In this document: positions 46,556 through 58,429 of the stretch, one piece after another
How positions within the stretch are numbered: position 1 is the first letter of the stretch
Layout of the letters: each line of letters starts with the position of its first letter
Source: Falsiroseomonas algicola
GTDB lineage: Bacteria; Pseudomonadota; Alphaproteobacteria; Acetobacterales; Acetobacteraceae
Direction of reading: 5' to 3'
DNA: 64,000 nt
Assembly (NCBI RefSeq): GCF_011040385.1
Contig: NZ_JAAIKB010000001.1
Span: 620,001 to 684,000 of the forward strand
Made by a program: the position numbers and the translations under genes
The notes under the pieces: generated by a model
Seen by the model: only the letters and a program-made list of their open reading frames with translations
Told to the model about the DNA's origin: nothing
Database searches by the model: none

Positions 46556-47794
46556 TCAGGCGTGGCGGACCAGCTTCTCCAGCCAGCGCGCCGCCAGTTC
46601 CGGCTTCGAATCCCGCAGCGCCTTGTGCCAGCCCCACAGCGCCGCCATGCGCATCATGTTGTAGCCGGTTGCTTCCGGCGGCAGCGTCCGCGCCCAGCCG
46701 ATGCGCGCGGGATCGGGCTCCGGCAGCGCATCATCGGTGGCGTAGAAGCGCCATCCCGTGCCGATCGGCGCCAGCGCCCAGTTGTCCCAGTCGATGATCG
46801 TCATGCCGCCCTCGGCGCCGACCAGGATGTTCCCGCAATGCATGTCGTCATGGAAGACGAAGAGCGGCATGCGCTGCAGCAGTTCCGCCAGGTGATCGTG
46901 CCGGCGCGCCAGGATCAGCGCGACATCGTCGAGCGAGTAGTGCCGCAGATGCGGCTCCACCGCCGGCGGCACCACCTTGGCGACAAGGTCGCGCAGCCGG
47001 TCGAGGAAGACTGGCACCAGGCTCGGCCCCTTCTCCAGGCTCGCCGGCGGCACCTGCGCCCAGTAGCGGTAGAGCAGCTCGTCATGCGTCGCCATCCAGC
47101 GATCGAGCGGCAGCGGCGCGCCGTCGAAGAAGGCCTGGAAGGTGGAGGTGAAGGGCCCATCCACCAGCACGCCGAAGTGGCGCGGCGCCATCAGCCGTTC
47201 CGCATCGATGTTGTCGAACAGCAGCGCTTCCGCGCGCACGCGGCGCATGTCGCGCTTGTCGGACCGCATCACCTTCTCCACGACGGAAAGCGGCGCCGCG
47301 CCATCGGCGAAGGCGATGTCGTGCCGGAACAGCGCCATGCCGATCAGCCCCGGGCGCATGCGCGCCGTCGCCAGCGACGCCACGGGGTGGCCGGTCGCCT
47401 GCGCCAGGAAGGCGCCGAGGCGCTCCAGCGCCGCCGTATCGTGGAACCTTGCGATGAAGTCGTCCTGCAACGCGGCCCGTTCCGCCACGCGCCCCGCGAT
47501 CCATTCCTGGTCGCGATGCCCGGCCTCGACCAGCAGCGAATAGGCGAGATGCGCGGTCCGCCACTTCGTCGCGGCCGACAACTCCTCCGCCAGCGCCACC
47601 AGCGGACCCGTCTCGCGCAGGCAGGCATCCGGATCGCGGCCGAGCAGCGGCGCCAGATGCGCCGAGGCCGCGGCGCGGTCGCCGCCCCGCAACGATGCCA
47701 GCGCCGCGGTCAGCCCGGCTTCCACATCCTCACCCAAGATCGCCACTATTCCCCAGCCCGCACCCTGCCATGGCGGCGTGGCGGCATGTTCCAT
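46556..47794 (-). CDS. APH-fold phosphotransferase family protein
   Basis: Length 412 aa. The C-terminal kinase lobe has FHDDMHCGNILVGAEGGMTIIDWDNWALAPIG, the Brenner-like HxDxxxxN and the DWD/DFG-equivalent of aminoglycoside/choline kinases. The first 100 residues are helical (VEAGLTAALASLRGGDRAAASAHLAPLL) and a VVEKVMRSDKRDMRRVRAEALLF segment may supply the ATP Lys. Phosphorylation of a glycan or lipid-linked alcohol would fit the neighbouring glycosyltransferases. Divergent from the giant glycosyltransferase gene. Confidence 0.8.
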   Translation of the reverse strand: MEHAATPPWQGAGWGIVAILGEDVEAGLTAALASLRGGDRAAASAHLAPLLGRDPDACLRETGPLVALAEELSAATKWRTAHLAYSLLVEAGHRDQEWIAGRVAERAALQDDFIARFHDTAALERLGAFLAQATGHPVASLATARMRPGLIGMALFRHDIAFADGAAPLSVVEKVMRSDKRDMRRVRAEALLFDNIDAERLMAPRHFGVLVDGPFTSTFQAFFDGAPLPLDRWMATHDELLYRYWAQVPPASLEKGPSLVPVFLDRLRDLVAKVVPPAVEPHLRHYSLDDVALILARRHDHLAELLQRMPLFVFHDDMHCGNILVGAEGGMTIIDWDNWALAPIGTGWRFYATDDALPEPDPARIGWARTLPPEATGYNMMRMAALWGWHKALRDSKPELAARWLEKLVRHA

Positions 47795-47857
47795 CCCGCG
47801 TCACGCGGCGTCTCCCCCCGGCGCGCCAACCCCCTGGCCATGGCGCCATCCCAGATT

Positions 47858-47875
47858 TGTCACGCAAATGTGACA
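47858..47875. promoter_or_regulatory. Palindromic site upstream of the giant glycosyltransferase gene
   Basis: TGTCAC-GCAAAT-GTGACA has 6-bp arms with a 6-bp AT-rich centre, in a lower-GC island within the 238-bp divergent gap. Spacing matches dimeric regulators of CRP/FNR-like size, although the half-site is not the classical TGTGA. The phosphotransferase start is 64 bp to the left and the giant gene start 158 bp to the right. Confidence 0.4.
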
Positions 47876-48032
47876 CAGACTTTACGGGCCGCCAAACCCG
47901 CCCTAGAAAGTCCGAAGGCGGGCCATGCGCCATCGCAAGGGCAGGCCTGCCGTCATATGGGCGTCCAGGGGCGGTTGTTGAACAGGCGCATCGGGGCTTC
48001 ATCGGCTTCGTCCCGACCGAGGTAGCGGCTCG

Positions 48033-51000
48033 ATGATGATGATCTACCGCTGCGTCTGCTACCCGCGGACTGGCGCCTGGGACAGCCTGAACCTCGACCT
48101 CGACGAGAAGAACATCCTCTTCCACGTGTCGGTGCGGCCGGACCGGCGGCAGATCGTGGTCAATGAGCTGGTGGATGGCGCCTGGGGCGTCGAGCGCACC
48201 CTGCCCATCGACCTCTCGGCGATCGAGATGCTGCCGATGCTCGTGGTCGCGACGCCGGCGCATATCCACCTGATCCTGGGTGGCGAGGTCCGCGCCACCG
48301 TCGCGGTCCAGTGGCCGCAGGGCCGCCAGGTTACCGTCCGCGCCAGCATGCCCTGGTTCGCCACCCAGCCCTTCGACCCCTTCAGCGTCGCGGCCGGCAC
48401 CCGCGCCTGGCTGCCCAGCGAGGGGATCGGGGCGGAGGCGCTTCGCGGCTTCCTGGCCGCCCCTGATTGGCAGGGCGGGCCGGTCGGCATCACCATCGGC
48501 GCCGACCGCTTCGCCGCCCAGGCCATGCCGGCGCCTTCCGCCCCCGGCCTGCCGAGGGGCTTCGTGGTGCCGCTCGACCCCGCTTCGCGCGACGCGCTGG
48601 CCCAGGCGGAGGCCAGCCAGCGCCGCGCCACGCCCGTCACCATCGAATTCGGCATCGACGACCCTGCCTTTGCCGGCACCGCCACCGGCTGGGTCAATGC
48701 CCCGGGCGTGGTCGAAGGCGTGACGGAAGGACGCATCACCGGCTGGGTGCGCGGCCGCGGCGCGCCGCCCCGGCTGGAGGTCCTGCTGGATGGCGCGCCC
48801 GTGCCGGCCCAGGTGACGCTGGGCGGGGAGCCCCGCTTCCCCCGCGACTCGCTGCTCGGCAGCCGCCGGCCGCAGGAAGGCGGCGATGGCTATGCGCCTG
48901 AACGGCGCAGCAGCTTCACCATCGACCTGGCGCCGGATGCCGCCGCCCGCCTGCGCGCCAGCGGGGCCTGGGTGCAGGTGGTGGGCGATGGCGCCAAGCT
49001 GATCGGCGGCAGCCTCGCCCTGGCCAGGCCGGAGCGGGAGGCGGAACCACCCCCCAGCCCGCCCCCCGCCGCCGAGGTGGCGGAGGAGACGGTCGGCTCC
49101 GGCCAGGCGGGTGGCGCGGTGCAGGTGCTGCGCCTGGATGTGCCGCCCGCCAGCGCGGAGGATGTGTGGCTGGACCTGGTGGCGCCGAATGGCGACATCC
49201 CGCTGCACCTGCGCTACCGCGCGGCGGAGAACTGGCTGGTCACCAACCACTGCACCGACGGGGTCTGGGGGTCGGAGACGGTGCTCGGCCGCCTGCCCTC
49301 CTCCTGGTACCGCCTCGTGGTGGATGTCGAGATCGGCGCGGGGCGCTGCGTCATCGCCGTGAACCACCTGCCCTGGGGGGAGGTCACCGGCTCGCTGCTG
49401 GGCAGCGAGGAGTTGACGGTGCGCGGCCCGCACCAGCGCTTCGCCCGCCGCACCCCGCGCGCCGCCCCGCCGCCCCCGCCGCCCATGCCGCCGGCCGGTG
49501 CGGTGGACCGGATCCTGCGCGATTCGGTGCTGGGCTGGGCGGTCGATGCCGAGCCCGATGCGATGCTGGAGATCGATATCGGCGAGGGCCCGGTGCGCGT
49601 GGCGCCGCGCTGGATGGACCTGCCCGCCCTCGCGGCGCGGCTCGGACGCCCCGGCACGCGGATCGGCTTCGAGGCCACGCTGCCGGAGGCGCTGCGCGGC
49701 CGGCTCGGCCGCCACCTCCGCCTGGCCCGCCTGTCGATCGGCGGCCGTCCCCTCTCCCTGCCCCCCGCCTGGACCAGCGCGGTGACGGACGTCGATGGCT
49801 TCACCCTGCGGGGGGAGGTGGTCGGCACGCCGCCCGGGCGGACGCCCCGCATCGGCCTGATGGTCGCCGGCCAGGCGCGGGACGTCGCGACGGCGGTCTG
49901 GGTGGAGCCGCCGCTGCCGGGCCTGCGCACCAGCGGCGGCAGCCAGGCCCGCCACGGTTTCGAGATCGAGCTGCCCGGCACCATCTGGACCGATATCGGC
50001 GCGGTGCCGGATGCGGCCATCGACGTCGTCATCGACGGGCGGGTGATCGAGCCCTCCCGCCTCCTCTTCACGCGCGCCATGGCGCAGCAGGCGCTGGTGC
50101 GGGCGGCGCAGATCGGCGATGGCACGGCGGCCGGGCAGTGCAACGCGCTGCTCGCGGCGGAGCATCTGGGCTTCGGGAGGTTCCTGCCGGACCTGCCGGA
50201 GGAGGCGGCGCGCTTCCACCGGGACTTCGCCCGCCGCATGAAGCTCGGCGACTTCCTGGCACGCCACGCCGCCAAGGCGCCGGCCGCCGCCACCCTGCAC
50301 CGCGCCGCGCCCGAAGCCACGGCGGAGGATCGCCAGCGCGTCGCCGTCTGGCGCGCGCTCCGCGCCGTCAATGCGCGGCTGGCCGATGAGGGCGACCCCA
50401 TCTTCTACCACGCCAGGCTGGTGGAGGCGTCGCACCAGCTGGAGGGCGAGGCGCGGGAGCATTTCTGGTTCGGCCTGGTGCCGACCCTCTGCGCCACCAA
50501 CGAATTGCCACTGCTGGAACGCGCGGTGCCGCTTTCCACCTGGTTCCACCATGAGGAGCGTGCGGATGCCTGGGCGCTCAGCTCCGCCATCCCGCTGCTG
50601 GCGGCGGCGGGGGAGGTCCGGCGGGCGACCGATGCGCTCTACAAGCTCGCCGGCAGCATGCAGGGCTGGATCAACACGGCCTGCATCGGCTTCGCGCTCC
50701 GTCACCTCGAACGCCAGGCGGCGGAGGGGCTGCTGGCGGAGGCGGAGCTGGAACGCTTCCGCTACGCCTTCCTCGCCCTGCTCGATGCCTTCAAGGGGGA
50801 ATGGTTCTCCCGCCTGCATGACCGGCACCTGGTGGAGACGCTGGTGCTGCTGATGGACCGGCGGCACCTGATGCCGGACTACCTGGCGCAGGACATGGTC
50901 CGCGCCGCGCTCCGCCATTACGGGCTTTCCCCGGCCTTCTGGACGCGGTGGCAAGCCGGGCCCGCGCGGCGGGAGACGGGCCCGGACACGCTGATGGGCG

Positions 51001-53549
51001 TGGCCCATCGCCGATTCCGCCAGATCGAGGCCGCGCTCGGCGATCCCGCGCGGGTGGACCAGCGGCTGGGCACGCTGCACGCGGCGCTCGACTTCTTCCG
51101 CGGCCACGGCAACCCGGAAGCCGTGATCTGGATGCGCGAATTGGCGGCGCATGGTCTGCGCGCCGGCAGCACCGCCAATCCCGGCACCATCGGCCGGCTG
51201 CTGACGGACCTCGTCGCGCTGGATGCGCGCGACGCGGTGCGCATCGCCGCCATGCCGGGCCTGCCCGCGCCCGGCGGGCTGTCCGGGCTCGGCATCGCGC
51301 CCGATGGGCTGCGCGACCTGCTGCGGGAGATGCGGCCCCAGCCGCGCGGCATGACGGAGCAGGCGCAGCGCAGCCTGTGCCGCCTGCTTCTGGCCGCCGA
51401 TCCATCCCCTTCCATGGTGGAGGAAGCGTCGGACCTTGCGACCATGCTGGCCGATGCGCGCTACCTGCATGTCGGCGCGGATGCGCTGAGCCTGCTGGCC
51501 GTGCGCCTCGCCGCCGCCCCGCCGGGCCAGGGCCATGGCGGCGCCGCGATGGCGCTGCGCCTGGTGCGGCGCTTCGCCGCGGCGATGACGCGGGCGGTGG
51601 ATGGCGGCGGCGCGCCGCAGCTGCCGGCGCCGCTGCTGGCCGGCCTGGCGCGGCTGCTGCAGATGCTGGAAGTCCAGCGCCTGCCGGAACTGGCGGAAGC
51701 GGTGACGGCTCTGCAGGCGCTGCGGGATTCCATCCATCTCCGCTACCGCCACCGGCACGACCCGGCGCTGGCGCCGGTGGAGCGCCCGGCCATCGCCTTC
51801 GATCCCCGGGCGCTCGCGGGCGACGTGCTGGTCTGCGTCTATTCCTGCAACAAGTACCTCGACACCCGCGTGGCCGCGATCCGGGAGACCTGGATGCGCG
51901 ACCTGGCCGCGGTCGGCGCGCGCTGCATCGTCATCGTGGGCGATGGCGACGACCGGCTGGATGGCGACGTGCTGCGCCTCGCGGTCTCCGACCGCTACGA
52001 GGACCTGCCGCAGAAGACGCTGCGCATGGTGGAATGGGTGCATGCCAACACCGATGCGCAATACCTCATCAAGATCGATGACGACTGCTACCTGAGCACA
52101 GAGAACTACTTCGGCACGCTGGACTGGCGCGCGCATCACTATCACGGCCGGCTGCTGGAACGCGCGATCGGCGGCACGGACCGCGTCTGGCACCACCTGA
52201 AGTCCAGCAGCGAACGCGCCCGCAGCATCGACCGCTCGCCCGAACCCTCCCGCTACTGCGATGGTGGCGGCGTCTACACCCTGTCCCGCTTCGCCATGGG
52301 GCGGCTGGTCGCGGCCGCGGCGCGGCGGGACGGCCAGCGCCTGATCGCGCGGTCCTTCATGGAGGACAAGCTCGTCGGCGACCTGCTGGCCATGGAGGAG
52401 ATCTTTCCCGACAACACCGACTACGAGAGCTACCAGCGCCGCCGCACCTTCGGGGCCGCGCATCCCATCGGCATCTACGAGAACACCTTCTTCCCGAGCG
52501 CGCTCGGCCCCGCCAAGGTCGCGCATCTCGACCTGGACCGCGACCAGGCGCGCGCCCATGCGCTGCGCGGCCAGCTCGACCTCAGCCCGAAGAAGCTCTG
52601 GCCCAGCTTCGCCTCCGTCGGCACCGACCACACCCACCACCAGCTCGAACTGCTGAGCGACGGGGAGGTGCTGGCCCGGGCGCAGGCGGAGCCGATCGGC
52701 GTGGTGCTGGCGGCGCGGAACGAGATGACGATGCTGCCGCATCTGCTGGACCACTACCGGTCGATCGGCGTCCGCGCCTTCTACGCCGTGGACAACGCCT
52801 CCGACGATGGCTCGCGCGAATGGCTGCTCGCCCAGCCCGATGTCGTCGTCTATTCCGCGGCCGGGGAATACCGCACCTCCCATTACGGCGTGACTTGGCA
52901 GCAGACGGTGCTGGCGCATCATTTCATCAGCCGCTGGGCGGTGGTGGCGGATGCGGACGAGTTCCTGATCTATCCCGGCTGGCGGAACCGCAGCCTCGCG
53001 GAATTCGTGGCGGCGGTGGAGGCGGAGCGCGCCAATGCCGTGCCGCTCTGGATGGTGGACATGTACCCGGCCGGCCCGCTGGAGGAGGCGGATTTCACCC
53101 AGCGCCCCCCCTTCGAGGCCGCGACCTGGATGGATCGGGAGCCGGTGCAGGCCTTCCGCCTGACCAGTTGCTTCTACAGCAACCGCTGCCAGCAGGTCTC
53201 CGCGCTGCGCCATCGCCTGCTGCCGGACAGCGAACCCAACGGCTTCGTGGCGGAGAAGGTGGCGCTGTTCCGCTACCAGCCCTGGATCCGCGTCAGCGAG
53301 GGCATCCACAGCGCGACCAATCTGCGCCTGTCCCGCCAGCCCGCCGTCTTCGCCCACTTCAAGTACCACGCGGGCTTCCGCCGGAAGATCCTGGAGGAGA
53401 TCGACCGCGGCCAGCACTACAACGGCGCGGCCGAGTACAAGCGCTACGCCGCCATGGTGGCCGAGAGCGCGGGCGCCTTCGGGCGGGAGGGCCTGTCGGT
53501 GCAACTCGGCCCGGATGGCTTCCTGCCGCCGCGGTCACGGCAGCCTTAG
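48033..53549 (+). CDS. Giant protein: two galectin-like domains, GT31-like and GT2/GT92-like glycosyltransferase domains
   Basis: Length 1838 aa, start at MMMIYRC with GAGG about 11 bp upstream; no signal peptide or membrane helix. Residues about 5-105 and 360-465 look galectin-like. They keep H-x3-R, N, W and E at galectin spacing: His31, Arg35, Asn44, Trp51, Glu54, and His392, Arg396, Asn405, Trp412, Glu415. Beta-sandwich stretches with GxITGWVRG-like motifs lie around 230-330 and 490-680, then a helical middle to about 1240. Residues 1264-1500 carry GT31 signs: AIRETWMRD, EDLPQKTL, IKIDDDCYL (Asp1349-1351), YCDGGGVYTLS and FMEDKLVG (Glu1444-Asp1445). Residues 1553-1810 form a second transferase: VVLAARNEMTMLPHLLDHYRSIGV and VADADEFLIYP with Asp1640-x-Asp1642. 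It probably builds a beta-linked galactose-type glycan in the cytoplasm. The domain calls are by eye. Confidence 0.85.
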   Translation: MMMIYRCVCYPRTGAWDSLNLDLDEKNILFHVSVRPDRRQIVVNELVDGAWGVERTLPIDLSAIEMLPMLVVATPAHIHLILGGEVRATVAVQWPQGRQVTVRASMPWFATQPFDPFSVAAGTRAWLPSEGIGAEALRGFLAAPDWQGGPVGITIGADRFAAQAMPAPSAPGLPRGFVVPLDPASRDALAQAEASQRRATPVTIEFGIDDPAFAGTATGWVNAPGVVEGVTEGRITGWVRGRGAPPRLEVLLDGAPVPAQVTLGGEPRFPRDSLLGSRRPQEGGDGYAPERRSSFTIDLAPDAAARLRASGAWVQVVGDGAKLIGGSLALARPEREAEPPPSPPPAAEVAEETVGSGQAGGAVQVLRLDVPPASAEDVWLDLVAPNGDIPLHLRYRAAENWLVTNHCTDGVWGSETVLGRLPSSWYRLVVDVEIGAGRCVIAVNHLPWGEVTGSLLGSEELTVRGPHQRFARRTPRAAPPPPPPMPPAGAVDRILRDSVLGWAVDAEPDAMLEIDIGEGPVRVAPRWMDLPALAARLGRPGTRIGFEATLPEALRGRLGRHLRLARLSIGGRPLSLPPAWTSAVTDVDGFTLRGEVVGTPPGRTPRIGLMVAGQARDVATAVWVEPPLPGLRTSGGSQARHGFEIELPGTIWTDIGAVPDAAIDVVIDGRVIEPSRLLFTRAMAQQALVRAAQIGDGTAAGQCNALLAAEHLGFGRFLPDLPEEAARFHRDFARRMKLGDFLARHAAKAPAAATLHRAAPEATAEDRQRVAVWRALRAVNARLADEGDPIFYHARLVEASHQLEGEAREHFWFGLVPTLCATNELPLLERAVPLSTWFHHEERADAWALSSAIPLLAAAGEVRRATDALYKLAGSMQGWINTACIGFALRHLERQAAEGLLAEAELERFRYAFLALLDAFKGEWFSRLHDRHLVETLVLLMDRRHLMPDYLAQDMVRAALRHYGLSPAFWTRWQAGPARRETGPDTLMGVAHRRFRQIEAALGDPARVDQRLGTLHAALDFFRGHGNPEAVIWMRELAAHGLRAGSTANPGTIGRLLTDLVALDARDAVRIAAMPGLPAPGGLSGLGIAPDGLRDLLREMRPQPRGMTEQAQRSLCRLLLAADPSPSMVEEASDLATMLADARYLHVGADALSLLAVRLAAAPPGQGHGGAAMALRLVRRFAAAMTRAVDGGGAPQLPAPLLAGLARLLQMLEVQRLPELAEAVTALQALRDSIHLRYRHRHDPALAPVERPAIAFDPRALAGDVLVCVYSCNKYLDTRVAAIRETWMRDLAAVGARCIVIVGDGDDRLDGDVLRLAVSDRYEDLPQKTLRMVEWVHANTDAQYLIKIDDDCYLSTENYFGTLDWRAHHYHGRLLERAIGGTDRVWHHLKSSSERARSIDRSPEPSRYCDGGGVYTLSRFAMGRLVAAAARRDGQRLIARSFMEDKLVGDLLAMEEIFPDNTDYESYQRRRTFGAAHPIGIYENTFFPSALGPAKVAHLDLDRDQARAHALRGQLDLSPKKLWPSFASVGTDHTHHQLELLSDGEVLARAQAEPIGVVLAARNEMTMLPHLLDHYRSIGVRAFYAVDNASDDGSREWLLAQPDVVVYSAAGEYRTSHYGVTWQQTVLAHHFISRWAVVADADEFLIYPGWRNRSLAEFVAAVEAERANAVPLWMVDMYPAGPLEEADFTQRPPFEAATWMDREPVQAFRLTSCFYSNRCQQVSALRHRLLPDSEPNGFVAEKVALFRYQPWIRVSEGIHSATNLRLSRQPAVFAHFKYHAGFRRKILEEIDRGQHYNGAAEYKRYAAMVAESAGAFGREGLSVQLGPDGFLPPRSRQP

Positions 53550-53852: not shown

Positions 53853-55850
53853 ATGTTGATCGCGCAGCACCCGCCAAGCAGCGACCGGGCAGTGCTCGCC
53901 TCCTCCGAGGCGGGCACCACCGCCAGCCGCCAGCCTGCCCTCCCGCCCTCCCTGGTCGCGGCCATGCGGGAGCCCGTGCTGCTGATCGCCGCCGTCGAAT
54001 GGAACCTGGCGCGGGATGTCCTGGCCGTGCCGGTGCCGGTTCTGGCCATCGAGCATGACGCCGAGGCCGGCCTTCTGCTGCATGCCGAGGGCAGCCGCTT
54101 CCCGCTTCCCGCCATGCCGCCGCTCTGCGTCGCCGCCATCGCCTTCACGGAGGAGGGTGTGGCCGCGCTGAGCCAGGCGATCGCGATGACACCGGGCGGC
54201 GACGCCGTGCCGGCCATCACGCGCATGCAGCCCGGCGATGCCATGGGGCTCGCGACTGCCGTCGTCTCCGGCACCACCGCCATGCTGCGCCGCCAGGCCG
54301 CGCTGCTGACGGGGTCTCTCCGCAGCCTCAGCCAGATGCGCGCGGCGCATGAGGATCACCAGACCCGCCTCGCGCAGCTTGAAGCCTATGTCGCGCGCGA
54401 CAACCGGCAGGATTTCGACCAGGTCTTCGCGGAGGAGCCGGCGGGCGGGGAGGATGCGGCCATCCGGATCGGCCGCGGCGCCAATCTCGGCAGCCTGACC
54501 CAGTTGCTGCCCATCGCGAGCCGCGGCGTCAGCGCCGTCGCCGTGCATCTGGATGACAGCCCCATCGCGCATGACGCGGTTCTGCAGGTCCGGCTGACCA
54601 GCCTGGAGGATGGGCAGGAACGCGCCTCCTGGCGCCTGCCGGCCGCGGGCCTCAAGCCGGGCTGGCAGGTGCTGGGCATCGAGCGGGCGCTGACCGGCCT
54701 GTCCCGCACGCTGAGCCTGGAGGTGACGGTGCCCGACGGCACCCTCGCCCTCTCGCTCGGCGGCCATCAGCCGCTGCCGAATTTCCGCGCGACCGGCACC
54801 GATGGCCAGCCCCTCGCGCCGCGCAGCCTCGCCTTCCGCGTCTGGACAGGCTTGCCGGGCGTCATGCCGCCGGTCACCGCCATCGACCATGCCGAGGGCA
54901 GCGCCGATCTCGGCCAGGGGTGGGAGGAAGTGCCCCTCCTGCCGGAGACGATCGAATTGTCGCGCGATGGCGCCACTGCCACCCGCCGCGCGCTGGATGA
55001 TGACAGCCTGCCCTGCGACCCCGCCCGCGCCGGCGTCACGCTGGGCCGGCTGGCCGGCGCGCTGCCCGCCGGCACGCTGGTCGCGCAGGCGACCGGGCGC
55101 CTCGTGGGCGAGGTGACGGAGCCCGTCGAATTCGCCCTCGCCGCCGCGATCACCGCGGCGGAGGCGCTGGACCTCTCCGGCCAGGACACGCCCGCCATCG
55201 GCTGGTCCGGCTGGGTGATGGCGGATGAGGACGGGCTGGCGCCGCTGCGCCTGTTCCAGGCCGAGGGCGCCGGGGAGCGCGGGCTCTTCGTGCTGACGCG
55301 CCGCCAGGCCGGGGCCACCGGCACGCCGCCGCGCGCGCGTATCGGCGGCCTGCGCGCGACGGTCGCCGCCTCCCAGGCCGGCCGGGCGAAGGATACGCCG
55401 ACGGCGCCCTCCCCCCTCGCCCCCCTGGTCGCGGAGGCGGATGAGACGGAGGTCGGGGAGAGCTTCGTCGCGGCGCGGGACTTCCGCGGCACCGGCTTCC
55501 ACGCGCTGGAAGGCGGCGGGGACCGCACCTGGCGGTGGCTCGGCGCCGATGTGAACCTGAAGCTCGACAATGTCTCCCGCCACGCCACGCGGATCGAGGT
55601 GCTGGTCGCCGCCGCGGCGCCGGGGCTGACCGAGGGCAGCATCACCTGCGCGGTGAATGGCGTGCCGACCCGCGCCAATGTGGCGGGCACGGCGGAGGCC
55701 GGGCTTTCGGTGGTGATCCCCCTGCCCCAGGCCGCGCGCCGGCGCGACCGCGGCGTGGTGCTGGACATCGCCTTCGGCCGCGCCCACCAGCCGCCGGGCG
55801 ACAGCCGCGTGCTGTCCGTCGCCTGCACCGGGCTCCGCATCTCCGCCTGA
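53853..55850 (+). CDS. Uncharacterized 665-aa protein of the glycan locus
   Basis: Soluble protein without signal peptide. Residues 30-140 are beta-rich with short hydrophobic strands (VLLIAAVEWNLARDVL, VPVLAIEHDAEAG). Residues about 143-185 look like a coiled coil (LRRQAALLTGSLRSLSQMRAAHEDHQTRLAQLEAYVARDN). The rest is mostly beta (SVAVHLDDSPIAHDAVLQVRL, GDRTWRWLGADVNLKLDNVSRHATRIEVLV), suggesting two or three sandwich domains. A carbohydrate-recognition or scaffolding role beside glycosyltransferases is plausible. I do not recognize a characterized family; a DUF6212-like assignment comes to mind but was not checked. Confidence 0.75.
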   Translation: MLIAQHPPSSDRAVLASSEAGTTASRQPALPPSLVAAMREPVLLIAAVEWNLARDVLAVPVPVLAIEHDAEAGLLLHAEGSRFPLPAMPPLCVAAIAFTEEGVAALSQAIAMTPGGDAVPAITRMQPGDAMGLATAVVSGTTAMLRRQAALLTGSLRSLSQMRAAHEDHQTRLAQLEAYVARDNRQDFDQVFAEEPAGGEDAAIRIGRGANLGSLTQLLPIASRGVSAVAVHLDDSPIAHDAVLQVRLTSLEDGQERASWRLPAAGLKPGWQVLGIERALTGLSRTLSLEVTVPDGTLALSLGGHQPLPNFRATGTDGQPLAPRSLAFRVWTGLPGVMPPVTAIDHAEGSADLGQGWEEVPLLPETIELSRDGATATRRALDDDSLPCDPARAGVTLGRLAGALPAGTLVAQATGRLVGEVTEPVEFALAAAITAAEALDLSGQDTPAIGWSGWVMADEDGLAPLRLFQAEGAGERGLFVLTRRQAGATGTPPRARIGGLRATVAASQAGRAKDTPTAPSPLAPLVAEADETEVGESFVAARDFRGTGFHALEGGGDRTWRWLGADVNLKLDNVSRHATRIEVLVAAAAPGLTEGSITCAVNGVPTRANVAGTAEAGLSVVIPLPQAARRRDRGVVLDIAFGRAHQPPGDSRVLSVACTGLRISA

Positions 55851-55888: not shown

Positions 55889-58429
55889 ATGGGCGGCATG
55901 ACCCCACCCGCCATCGCCATCATCGTCCCGGTCTTCAAGCATCCGGGCCTGCTGCCGGAAGCGCTCGATGCCGCGCTGGCCCAGCGGGGCGGCGTCCCGG
56001 TCGCCATCGTCATCGTCGATGATGGCTGCCCCTTCGAGGAAACGCGCACCATCGCATCCGCCTACGCCCTGGCGGAGGAGCGCGTGACCTACCTCCGCAA
56101 GCGCAATGGCGGCCTTTCCTCCGCCCGCAATGTCGGCATCGACTACGCGCTGCGCGCCTGGCCGGGGCTGGAGGCGATCTACTTCCTCGATGCCGACAAC
56201 CGGCTGACGCCTACCGCCATGGCCAATGCCCTCGGCCTGTTGCGCCAGGCCGGCGTGGACTGGGTCTATCCCAGCATCGACAAGTTCGGGATCGAATGGT
56301 CGGGCAACTACCAGGCCCCCTATTCCCGCCTCGCCCATGTCACCTTCGACAATATCTGCGAGGCCGGCAGCCTGGTGCATCGCCGCGTCTTCGATGCCGG
56401 CATCCGCTTCGATGAGACGATGAAGGCGGGCTACGAGGATTGGGAGTTCTGGATGCAGGCACTGGCGCGCGGCTTCCGCGGCCGCTGCCATCCGAGCTTC
56501 GGCCTGGAGTATCGCCAGCGTGGCGAGTCCATGCTCCGCGACAGCAACCGCCAGCGCGCCGGCATCCTGGCCTATATGCGGGAGAAGCACCGCGACCTCT
56601 TCTCGCTCCGCAACCTGCTGGCCTGGGAGCATGAGGAAGCGCCGCGCTTCGCCCTTTTCACCGATGCCGGCGGCGAGGTGCTGTGGTTCAGCGATGTGGA
56701 GGCACCGCCGCGCCGCATGACGCTCGACCAGCACGCGGAATCCTTCGCGGCGGAGGAGGTGGAGCCGGAGACGCTGGGCACGCCGCCCTATGCCGTCTGG
56801 CTGCCCGCCCCCGCCGTCGCGGCGCTGCGCCAGGCGGGGCTCCTCGCCAACCTCCTCTGGCACCTCCAGCGCCTCTGCGCCCGCCACCAGGCCGTGGCGA
56901 TCCATCTAGAGGCGGACCGCCGCGGCGTGGCGCTGGAACCGGACGCCGCCGCGCCGGTCTCCGCCCCCATCGGCTTCGCCGCCGGCCAGGCCGCGCTGCG
57001 GGAGGCGATCCGCGACCAGGGCTCCGATGGCTGGCTGGCGGCGGTGGCGGAGGATGCGGACAGCCCCCAGCTGGGTCGCCTCGTGCTGCGCTTCCCCTGC
57101 GCGGAGGAGGCGCTGCTGGTCGGCGCCTACGCCCCCACCCCCGTCGCCACCGCCGCCCGCCTCCGCCAGGACCATGACCCGGCGCGGCGCCGCCGCTGGA
57201 TCTGGCGCAAGGCCGGCGCGACGCCCGCGATCCGCAGCTATGCCGACTACCTCGCCACCGCCGTGGGCGCCGATCACGTCATGCCGCGGGCGCGCGGCCG
57301 CGGCCCGCGTCGCCATGTCGGCTTCGCGGTGCCGGATGGGGTGGCGGATGGCGTCGGCCGCGTCGCGGCGGCGCTGGCCACCGCGCTGCGGCGCGCGGGC
57401 TGCGCCACCCATCTCTTCGTGCTCGGCGCGCCGATCCTGACGCTCGGGGAGGATCTGCGCGACGCCTTCGACAGCGTCTCCTTCCTCGGCCGCGCCCTGC
57501 CGATGGAAGGCCCGCATGATTTCCTCGGCCAGCGCATCGCGCTCGCCGGGGACCTGGAAGGCGCGGAGCCCGCGCTGCTCGGCCTGCTGACGGAGCTGGA
57601 CGTGCTGGTGTGCAGCCATGTGCCGGCGCTCTCCGCCGTACTCGGCGACCTGCGCAAGCAGGGCACGAAGGTGGTCGGGCATCTCCACGCGCTGGAACGC
57701 TCCGCGCTCGGGCGGGGCATCGGCCACCCCTATCTCGCCCTCGCTTTCGAGCATGTGCACGACCTGCTGCTGGCGCCGTCCCAGGAATTGCTGGACTGGC
57801 TGCGCGGCGCGGGCGTGCCGGAGGCGAAGCTCTGCCTGCTGCGGCCCGCCGCCACGCTATCCATCACGGCGGAGGAACGGGACCGGCTGGTGACGGCGCG
57901 GCGCAGCCGCAGGCCCGGCATGCTGCGCGTGGCGCTGCTGCTGGGTCCCTCCGCCGGCCCGGCCCTGCGGGAGGCGCGGCTTCGCCTGGTCGCGCTGACC
58001 CGCCAGGCGGGGCTGCCGATCGACTGGGTGGCGGCGGGAGAGGCGCTGGACGGCGCGCTCCGCCGGCGGCTCGGCGCACTCGGCGTCGGCATCGCGGAGA
58101 CGCTGGCGGATGCGGTGGCCTCCGCCGACCTTCTGCTGCCGGAAATGGCGGAAGCGGCGGCGCTCGCGGTGCGGGATGCCCAGCTTCTGGGCTGCGTGCC
58201 GGTAGTGCCGACAGAAAGCCCGGCCGCCGGCCTGGTCCGGGGTGGTGCCGGCCTGATCGTCGAGGATGAGGCGGCGCTGCTGCCCCTTCTGCGCGACCTG
58301 GCGGTCGATCCCGGCCGCGTGGCGCGGCTTTCCGCGGCGGCGGCGGCGGAGGGCGCAGCCGCGCCGGGATGGACAGCGGCCACGGAGGCGTTGCGGGACC
58401 GGTTGGCGGCCTGGTTCCCGCCCCCCTGA
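55889..58429 (+). CDS. Double glycosyltransferase: GT2 domain plus GT-B-like C-terminal domain
   Basis: Length 846 aa; ATG at 55889 with a second in-frame ATG at 55898. Residues 8-230 are GT2: AIAIIVPVFKHPGLLPEALDAAL, VIVDDGCPFEET, NGGLSSARNVGIDYAL, YFLDADNRLT (DxD-type Asp101/Asp103) and GYEDWEFWMQAL. A middle part of about 250 residues carries no clear motif. Residues about 480-846 look GT-B/GT4-like: HVGFAVPDGVADGVGRVAAALATALRRAGCATHLFVLG, GHLHALERSALGRGIGHPYLALAFEHVHDLLLAPSQELLDWL, then a weak ExxAxxxxx donor region near VPTESPAAGLVRGGAGLIVED. The C-terminal half may have lost some catalytic residues. Confidence 0.85.
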   Translation: MGGMTPPAIAIIVPVFKHPGLLPEALDAALAQRGGVPVAIVIVDDGCPFEETRTIASAYALAEERVTYLRKRNGGLSSARNVGIDYALRAWPGLEAIYFLDADNRLTPTAMANALGLLRQAGVDWVYPSIDKFGIEWSGNYQAPYSRLAHVTFDNICEAGSLVHRRVFDAGIRFDETMKAGYEDWEFWMQALARGFRGRCHPSFGLEYRQRGESMLRDSNRQRAGILAYMREKHRDLFSLRNLLAWEHEEAPRFALFTDAGGEVLWFSDVEAPPRRMTLDQHAESFAAEEVEPETLGTPPYAVWLPAPAVAALRQAGLLANLLWHLQRLCARHQAVAIHLEADRRGVALEPDAAAPVSAPIGFAAGQAALREAIRDQGSDGWLAAVAEDADSPQLGRLVLRFPCAEEALLVGAYAPTPVATAARLRQDHDPARRRRWIWRKAGATPAIRSYADYLATAVGADHVMPRARGRGPRRHVGFAVPDGVADGVGRVAAALATALRRAGCATHLFVLGAPILTLGEDLRDAFDSVSFLGRALPMEGPHDFLGQRIALAGDLEGAEPALLGLLTELDVLVCSHVPALSAVLGDLRKQGTKVVGHLHALERSALGRGIGHPYLALAFEHVHDLLLAPSQELLDWLRGAGVPEAKLCLLRPAATLSITAEERDRLVTARRSRRPGMLRVALLLGPSAGPALREARLRLVALTRQAGLPIDWVAAGEALDGALRRRLGALGVGIAETLADAVASADLLLPEMAEAAALAVRDAQLLGCVPVVPTESPAAGLVRGGAGLIVEDEAALLPLLRDLAVDPGRVARLSAAAAAEGAAAPGWTAATEALRDRLAAWFPPP

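Follow-up and report, generated by a model that had tools for sequence, protein, structure and literature searches.

A galectin–galectin–GT31–GT2 protein of Falsiroseomonas algicola and its bacterial relatives

The window analyzed here, a stretch of 64,000 nucleotides from Falsiroseomonas algicola, contains a real gene whose product combines two galectin domains with GT31 and GT2-type domains, the latter two each having a conserved DxD motif. Our preferred reading, to which we give a probability of about 0.65, is that this product is a cytoplasmic glycosyltransferase for a surface polysaccharide, in which the galectin domains hold the acceptor or product while the GT31 and GT2 domains add sugars. 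Plants are known to pair galectin and GT31 domains; this variant is set apart by its bacterial family, its long spacer, and its GT2 partner. The galectin and GT31 domains in this protein are already recognized by Pfam, and no report of a bacterial galectin–GT31 protein was found in the open literature among the matches listed, as judged from titles and the starts of abstracts. To our knowledge, galectins and GT31 enzymes have been studied almost entirely in eukaryotes. Galectin sugar-binding domains are best known from animals.

The gene and its four domains

The open reading frame has the position and length given in the initial annotation. Its domains follow in the order galectin, linker, galectin, some 790 further residues, GT31, and GT2, as follows.

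48033–53549, forward strand: galectin–galectin–GT31–GT2 protein, CDS, 1838 residues (ORF list, Pfam, three orthologues)
48033–48377, forward strand: galectin domain 1, residues 1–115 (Pfam 22–85); H31, S33, R35, N44, W51, E54
48378–49112, forward strand: linker, residues 116–360, with beta strands in the model; least conserved part
49113–49457, forward strand: galectin domain 2, residues 361–475; H392, R394, R396, N405, W412, E415; below the Pfam cut-off alone
49458–50192, forward strand: GW-motif region, residues 476–720, beta-type by eye, without a Pfam match
50193–51794, forward strand: region of residues 721–1254, helical by eye, without a Pfam family
51822–52667, forward strand: GT31 domain, residues 1264–1545 (Pfam 1282–1452); DDD 1349–1351, ED 1444–1445
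52716–53546, forward strand: C-terminal GT2-type domain, residues 1562–1838 (Pfam PF13704 1562–1658); DAD 1640–1642

Support for all four domains comes from Pfam, from profile searches of the PDB, and from fold prediction, with galectin 2 the weakest. Neither NCBIfam nor PHROGs yielded a family for the 1838-residue protein at E ≤ 0.01. Stretches of residues 721–1254 are 26%–31% identical to five Roseobacter plasmid relatives. The highest 19-residue hydropathy mean (1.62, starting at residue 64, on the strands of galectin 1) just reaches 1.6, the usual limit for a membrane segment. No N-terminal membrane segment is seen by hydropathy, and on that measure alone the protein would be cytoplasmic.

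A survey of the domain order across Acetobacteraceae, proposed in the initial annotation, found it to be rare: the N-terminal half (489 residues) occurs in four of 15 genomes of the genus, the source genome included. In the other three it is 78%–80% identical, within open frames of 1882–1924 residues; the orthologous loci recovered in the genome scan described below belong to Roseomonas ponticola, Falsiroseomonas stagni, and an Acetobacteraceae MAG. Codon position 3 accounts for over half of the base differences from the three orthologues. Against these orthologues, dN/dS is 0.24–0.27 for the whole gene, 0.19–0.28 for the galectin domains, 0.38–0.43 for the linker, 0.27–0.42 for residues 476–1254, 0.11–0.16 for GT31, and 0.07–0.13 for GT2. 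Given three orthologues and purifying selection, the reading frame is therefore a real gene. Its GC content by codon position is 0.75/0.51/0.92. An antisense open frame of 1,924 codons lies opposite it (47730–53504, reverse strand); we read it as a shadow arising from the 73% GC content of the DNA, with its GC-rich third positions.

The galectin residues claimed for the two N-terminal segments (H31/R35/N44/W51/E54 and H392/R396/N405/W412/E415) are all present in the sequence, and the profile search supports the galectin reading. PF00337 matches the whole protein at 1.7e-9 in two stretches (37.7 bits versus a curated cut-off of 22.1); domain 1 alone scores 28.6 bits (1.1e-6) and domain 2 alone 18.8 bits (0.0011), under the curated cut-off. 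Searched against PDB sequences, the whole protein matches the nematode galectin 4hl0 at 6.4e-4. Stretch 354–422 by itself matches weakly (0.064), and with a family profile the second stretch reaches 0.0011. The family galectin profile, built from alignment A3, has 154 matches among PDB sequences (E ≤ 0.01; lowest value 7.8e-15), and the best 60 of these are nearly all galectins. The galectin alignment (A3) has 46 rows, namely the window protein, its three orthologues, and 42 of 60 other galectin matches.

The AlphaFold2 model of residues 1–480 has modest confidence (mean pLDDT 62.5, pTM 0.38). Ten-residue pLDDT means run from 72 to 90 over residues 11–90 (galectin 1) and from 51 to 79 over 361–450 (galectin 2), where we take the model to draw on only four informative alignment rows. 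At that modest confidence, and less firmly for domain 2, the comparison with galectin structures agrees with the annotation: the best 50 of 84 PDB matches (E ≤ 0.001) comprise 49 galectin-family entries and an engineered glucanase, with a TM-score on the target of 0.47–0.65 for most single-domain entries. The window domains resemble galectin-7, galectin-1, GRIFIN, and the Toxascaris leonina galectin in predicted fold and in most core residues; these are animal lectins not known to be fused to enzymes. Galectin 2 is 89%–92% identical between orthologues. A domain tree bearing on whether galectins 1 and 2 duplicated within the genus has too few columns and long branches.

The transferase half is modeled with higher scores (residues 1255–1838: pLDDT 88.7, pTM 0.85). 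All of the claimed GT31 motifs are found, as RETW (1284), EDLPQKT (1323), DDDC (1349), CDGGGVYTLS (1409), and MEDKLVG (1443), and PF01762 matches at 9.9e-12 (45.5 bits versus a cut-off of 23). The Fringe model PF02434 gives 18.7 bits on the whole protein versus a cut-off of 21, and 23.5 on the segment alone. A DxD metal motif and a conserved C-terminal ED motif characterize GT31. In our GT31–GT2 alignment (A4; 28 rows, the window protein plus 27 of the best 80 loci of the scan), the DDD and ED columns are invariant in all 28 sequences, as are both aspartates of the C-terminal DxD. Structure comparison places CHSY3/CHPF, B3GalT5, B3GalT6, and C1GalT1 among the top eight fold matches, as expected of the GT31 assignment, and the A4 profile finds six PDB sequences, of B3GalT6 (1.4e-7), B3GalT5 (5.9e-6), and B3GNT2. 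Human B3GalT5 and B3GalT6 and Drosophila C1GalT1 thus share the GT31 fold with the window protein, whose DDD aligns with that of B3GalT6; they are not known to have a galectin or a GT2 part.

The second, C-terminal transferase domain with a DxD also stands (PF13704, 7.7e-24, 84.5 bits versus a cut-off of 27.5; ADADE at 1639). Taken together, the galectin, GT31, and DxD motifs exceed what chance would produce. Its label as GT92 is unsupported, the domain being PF13704 (GT2-like). The GT92 model PF01697 went unreported for the window protein at E ≤ 10, in a search where HMMER's filters discard the majority of weak matches; in two relatives its values were just 0.036 and 0.14. We rejected the GT92 assignment.

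The bacterial family and its neighborhoods

Scanning genome contigs (84,980 species by description) with the GT31 alignment gave 120 relatives. Family counts rest on the best 80 of these, 75 of which are 5′-complete, with an in-frame stop upstream. A galectin domain lies ahead of GT31 in 64 of the 75 by a local profile (E < 1e-5) and in 50 of the 75 by Pfam PF00337 (E ≤ 0.01, one fixed stretch each). Seeds for the local profile were picked by the galectin motif, and two chance motif matches were removed. The Pfam stretch ran from 920 to 520 residues before GT31, with bounds set after the local-profile positions were known; it had been widened from 830 before any Pfam run, since the narrower stretch truncated the second galectin domain in the three orthologues. 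By tree labels, 54 of the 64 galectin-bearing loci are Roseobacteraceae/Paracoccaceae; the other ten are the three orthologues, Azonexus, Methylobacterium, Bordetella, and four that carry no family label. Across dozens of species, relatives keep a galectin domain before GT31 and GT2. Two extra N-terminal GT2 domains occur in 23 of the 75, all 23 with a galectin domain.

The remaining 11 of the 75 have no galectin domain detectable with the local profile (L047–L054, L108, L104, and L109), which implies that GT31–GT2 can manage without one. By title, L047–L054 are six gammaproteobacterial sequences, one Sulfurisoma, and one Pararhodobacter, and L108 is Ideonella. The N-termini of L104 and L109 look by eye like decayed galectins, and several galectin-less relatives have GW-type repeats near the N-terminus. 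Across the 64 loci, galectin distances correlate with GT31 distances (r = 0.74; 0 of 2,000 permutations as high), as expected if the two were co-inherited, although species relatedness alone would also yield this. Mean pairwise identity among relatives is 30% for the galectin domains versus 56% for GT31.

The galectin half (489 residues) matched nothing in 72,556 plasmid records, perhaps because galectin domains diverge fast. Searched with the GT31 part, the same records gave five Roseobacter plasmid records, whose proteins are annotated “glycosyltransferase” or “glycosyltransferase family 2 protein” in public records. Proteins from Thalassococcus sp. S3, Sulfitobacter sp. D7, and other Roseobacter plasmids have a galectin domain, a spacer, GT31, and GT2 in the same order as the window protein; they differ from it in having one galectin domain, and several have two extra N-terminal GT2 domains. 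PF00337 matches S3 at 1e-7 and D7 weakly (0.005, under the cut-off); in Sulfitobacter W027 it gives no match at E ≤ 1, and a galectin motif is seen by eye.

Three neighbors of the window gene bear on its context.

53853–55850, forward strand: DUF6212 protein (PF19717, 9.1e-85), 665 residues (Pfam)
55898–58429, forward strand: GT2 + GT4-like glycosyltransferase, start inferred (Pfam; conserved in three orthologous loci)
46556–47794, reverse strand: divergent gene with weak kinase-motif matches only (conserved in three orthologous loci)

The order divergent gene, galectin gene, DUF6212, GT2–GT4 is kept in the three orthologous loci, and the DUF6212 protein co-occurs with the galectin gene in the same four of 15 genus genomes. 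No capsule-type exporter is seen beside the window gene, a peptide-type ABC importer following the GT2–GT4 gene, and no sulfotransferase is found among the scanned neighbors. A homologue of the downstream transporter occurs without the galectin gene in two genus genomes (G195, 84%; G287, 54%). In G195 the other flank of the galectin locus is absent from the stretch read, and insertion and loss are both possible.

Because no capsule exporter adjoins the window gene, the pathway is borrowed from its relatives. Within 7 kb or less on each side of the best 80 of the 120 loci, homologues (E ≤ 1e-8) of a capsule-type ABC-export ATPase occur at 30 loci, KpsE-like proteins at 29, UDP-Galp mutase at 16, and sulfotransferase at 12; at least one of the listed ABC matches covers little sequence and could belong to a different ABC protein. 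In the stretches read around the Roseobacter plasmid relatives, sulfotransferase genes are annotated in five of five, ABC export genes with a sugar transporter in four of five, and UDP-galactopyranose mutase and rfbB/rfbC in two of five each. These genes hint that the glycan is sulfated and contains galactose or Galf. By locus, a sulfotransferase lies near the gene in L034, L035, L036, L042, and L043, rfbB/rfbC in L034 and L042, and UDP-galactopyranose mutase in L035 and L043. The wider bacterial family probably helps build cell-surface sugar chains.

Proposed role and comparison with known enzymes

The galectin domains may bind a beta-galactoside in a growing glycan or lipid-linked acceptor, and their likeliest use would be to hold a galactose-containing acceptor or chain near the two active sites. 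GT31 would then add a sugar in beta-1,3 linkage, the next sugar would come from the GT2 domain, and the product would be a surface polysaccharide; the DUF6212 and GT2–GT4 neighbors may act in the same pathway. As did the initial annotation, we hypothesize that one protein could both recognize an acceptor and extend it twice.

The binding-site core of galectin-1 consists of H, N, R, N, W, E, and R, among them Asn46 and Arg73. H, R, N, W, and E of the core are present in both window domains; at the Asn46 position, domain 1 has Ser and domain 2 Arg, and at the Arg73 position there is Thr or Val. The 67 galectin domains of the 64 loci have H in 66, R in 65, N in 65, W in 67, and E in 63, with Ser at the Asn46 position in 62 and Arg at the Arg73 position in 12, counts that are biased upward by the motif-chosen seeds of the local profile. 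The replacement of Asn46 by Ser or Arg and the loss of most Arg73 would suit galectin domains whose ligand is a different glycan or a protein partner, or that dimerize the enzyme, their fold being kept for scaffolding; the fungal galectin-fold lectin CGL3, with chitotriose (2r0h), is among the PDB fold matches. We nevertheless think this rather unlikely, as the five core residues are each kept in 63 to 67 of the 67 domains, which, with the same upward bias, speaks more for sugar binding than for a purely scaffolding role.

In a second alternative, GT31–GT2 would act as a bifunctional polymerase of a repeating disaccharide, in the manner of chondroitin synthase, with the galectins tethering the chain for processive growth. 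The best fold match of the GT31–GT2 half is CHSY3–CHPF chondroitin synthase, which likewise has two GT domains per chain; the top matches are CHSY3–CHPF chains, and the Escherichia coli K4 chondroitin polymerase is found too. The sulfotransferase homologues near 12 of the best 80 relatives, annotated near all five plasmid relatives, and the two additional GT2 domains per chain in 23 of the 75 also favor it. Yet whole-chain TM-scores to CHSY3–CHPF are only 0.25–0.30, so the match may reflect two GT-A domains in a row in an arrangement that is not shared, and the window gene has neither a sulfotransferase among its scanned neighbors nor a known polymer. The second catalytic domain of CHSY3–CHPF is GT7, and that enzyme is not known to have a galectin domain; the C-terminal domain of the window protein is PF13704 and not of the CHSY kind. 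On balance a polymerase appears improbable, a shade more so than a different ligand or scaffold. More speculative again, and a long shot, is a picture of bacterial galectin-guided polymerases in which GT31 and GT2 act in alternation, producing a glycosaminoglycan-like capsule that contains galactose and is sulfated in some species, with the galectins holding the chain. The idea that the motifs resemble galectins and GT31 by chance, without real homology, could draw on segment 2 alone falling under the Pfam cut-off and on the best PDB stretch alone giving 0.064, but it is contradicted by profile, fold, and orthologue evidence and can be set aside as extremely improbable.

For the preferred reading, a glycosyltransferase with acceptor-holding galectin domains, plants offer a close precedent. 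As the initial annotation had stated, the galectin–GT31 architecture is known there, from the GALT2/GALT5 Hyp-O-galactosyltransferases, in which, as in the window protein, PF00337 lies ahead of PF01762 in one chain (PMC4431829). The same source describes Arabidopsis GALT5 as a protein of 672 residues with one galectin domain (194–392), GT31 a short way beyond it (465–672), and a membrane segment. Unlike GALT5 as described there, the window protein has two galectin domains, some 790 residues separating galectin 2 from GT31, and an added GT2 domain; unlike the plant class, it shows no N-terminal membrane segment and is not compact. GT31 is named for mammalian enzymes in PMC4202792, and the available portion of PMC8206207 does not mention galectins.

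The bacterial family provides enzymes in which to study how a glycosyltransferase makes use of a galectin domain, an issue that the plant enzymes raise as well, and it points to uncharacterized surface glycans in Roseobacter-group and Acetobacteraceae bacteria. It also bears on the origin of galectins. According to a 2026 study of sponge galectins, the prototype galectin fold arose early in the evolution of metazoans (PMC13084444). Should the galectin–GT31 pairing in bacteria have the age that its distribution suggests, galectins would have originated outside eukaryotes, and plants could have obtained the pairing from bacteria or share an ancestor of it with them.

Rarity of galectin and GT31 domains in bacteria

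Both domains are uncommon in the bacteria sampled. The whole GT31 part was matched by the source genome only in a sample of 200 Acetobacteraceae genomes; the GT31–GT2 half was matched in 14 of the 200 at E ≤ 1e-10, and outside the source genome these matches come entirely or chiefly from the GT2 part. PF01762 was found at E ≤ 1e-5 in one of 289 genomes of the class (the source genome) and in none of 14 controls. At E ≤ 0.001, PF00337 occurs in five of 299 genomes of the family, three of 385 of the class, and two of 398 of the phylum, samples that partly overlap and each count the source genome, and in none of the 14 control genomes in any of the three scans. When the threshold is relaxed to E ≤ 10, seven of the 14 controls give matches, none above the cut-off. 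Further PF00337 matches lie in genomes G595 (L033, L041) and G993 (L124). A match in contig C33 (E 0.54) was discarded as lying in a protein unrelated by eye.

Five other Acetobacteraceae galectin proteins (L009:6582-7781, L009:17500-18579, L012:9519-10688, L011:12251-13567 on the reverse strand, and L010:9314-11746) are free-standing, TPR-fused, or GT2-fused. One is fused to GT2, one is TPR-fused and lies beside a glycosyltransferase gene, two more adjoin glycosyltransferase genes, and the checked neighbor of the fifth is an ATPase-domain protein; three of the four neighbors scanned are multi-domain glycosyltransferases. Such fusions and neighbors indicate that the bacterial galectins seen here tend to accompany glycosyltransferases. 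An alphaproteobacterial sequence from another family of the class (L040:9475-13146) is a galectin–GT2–GT25 fusion.
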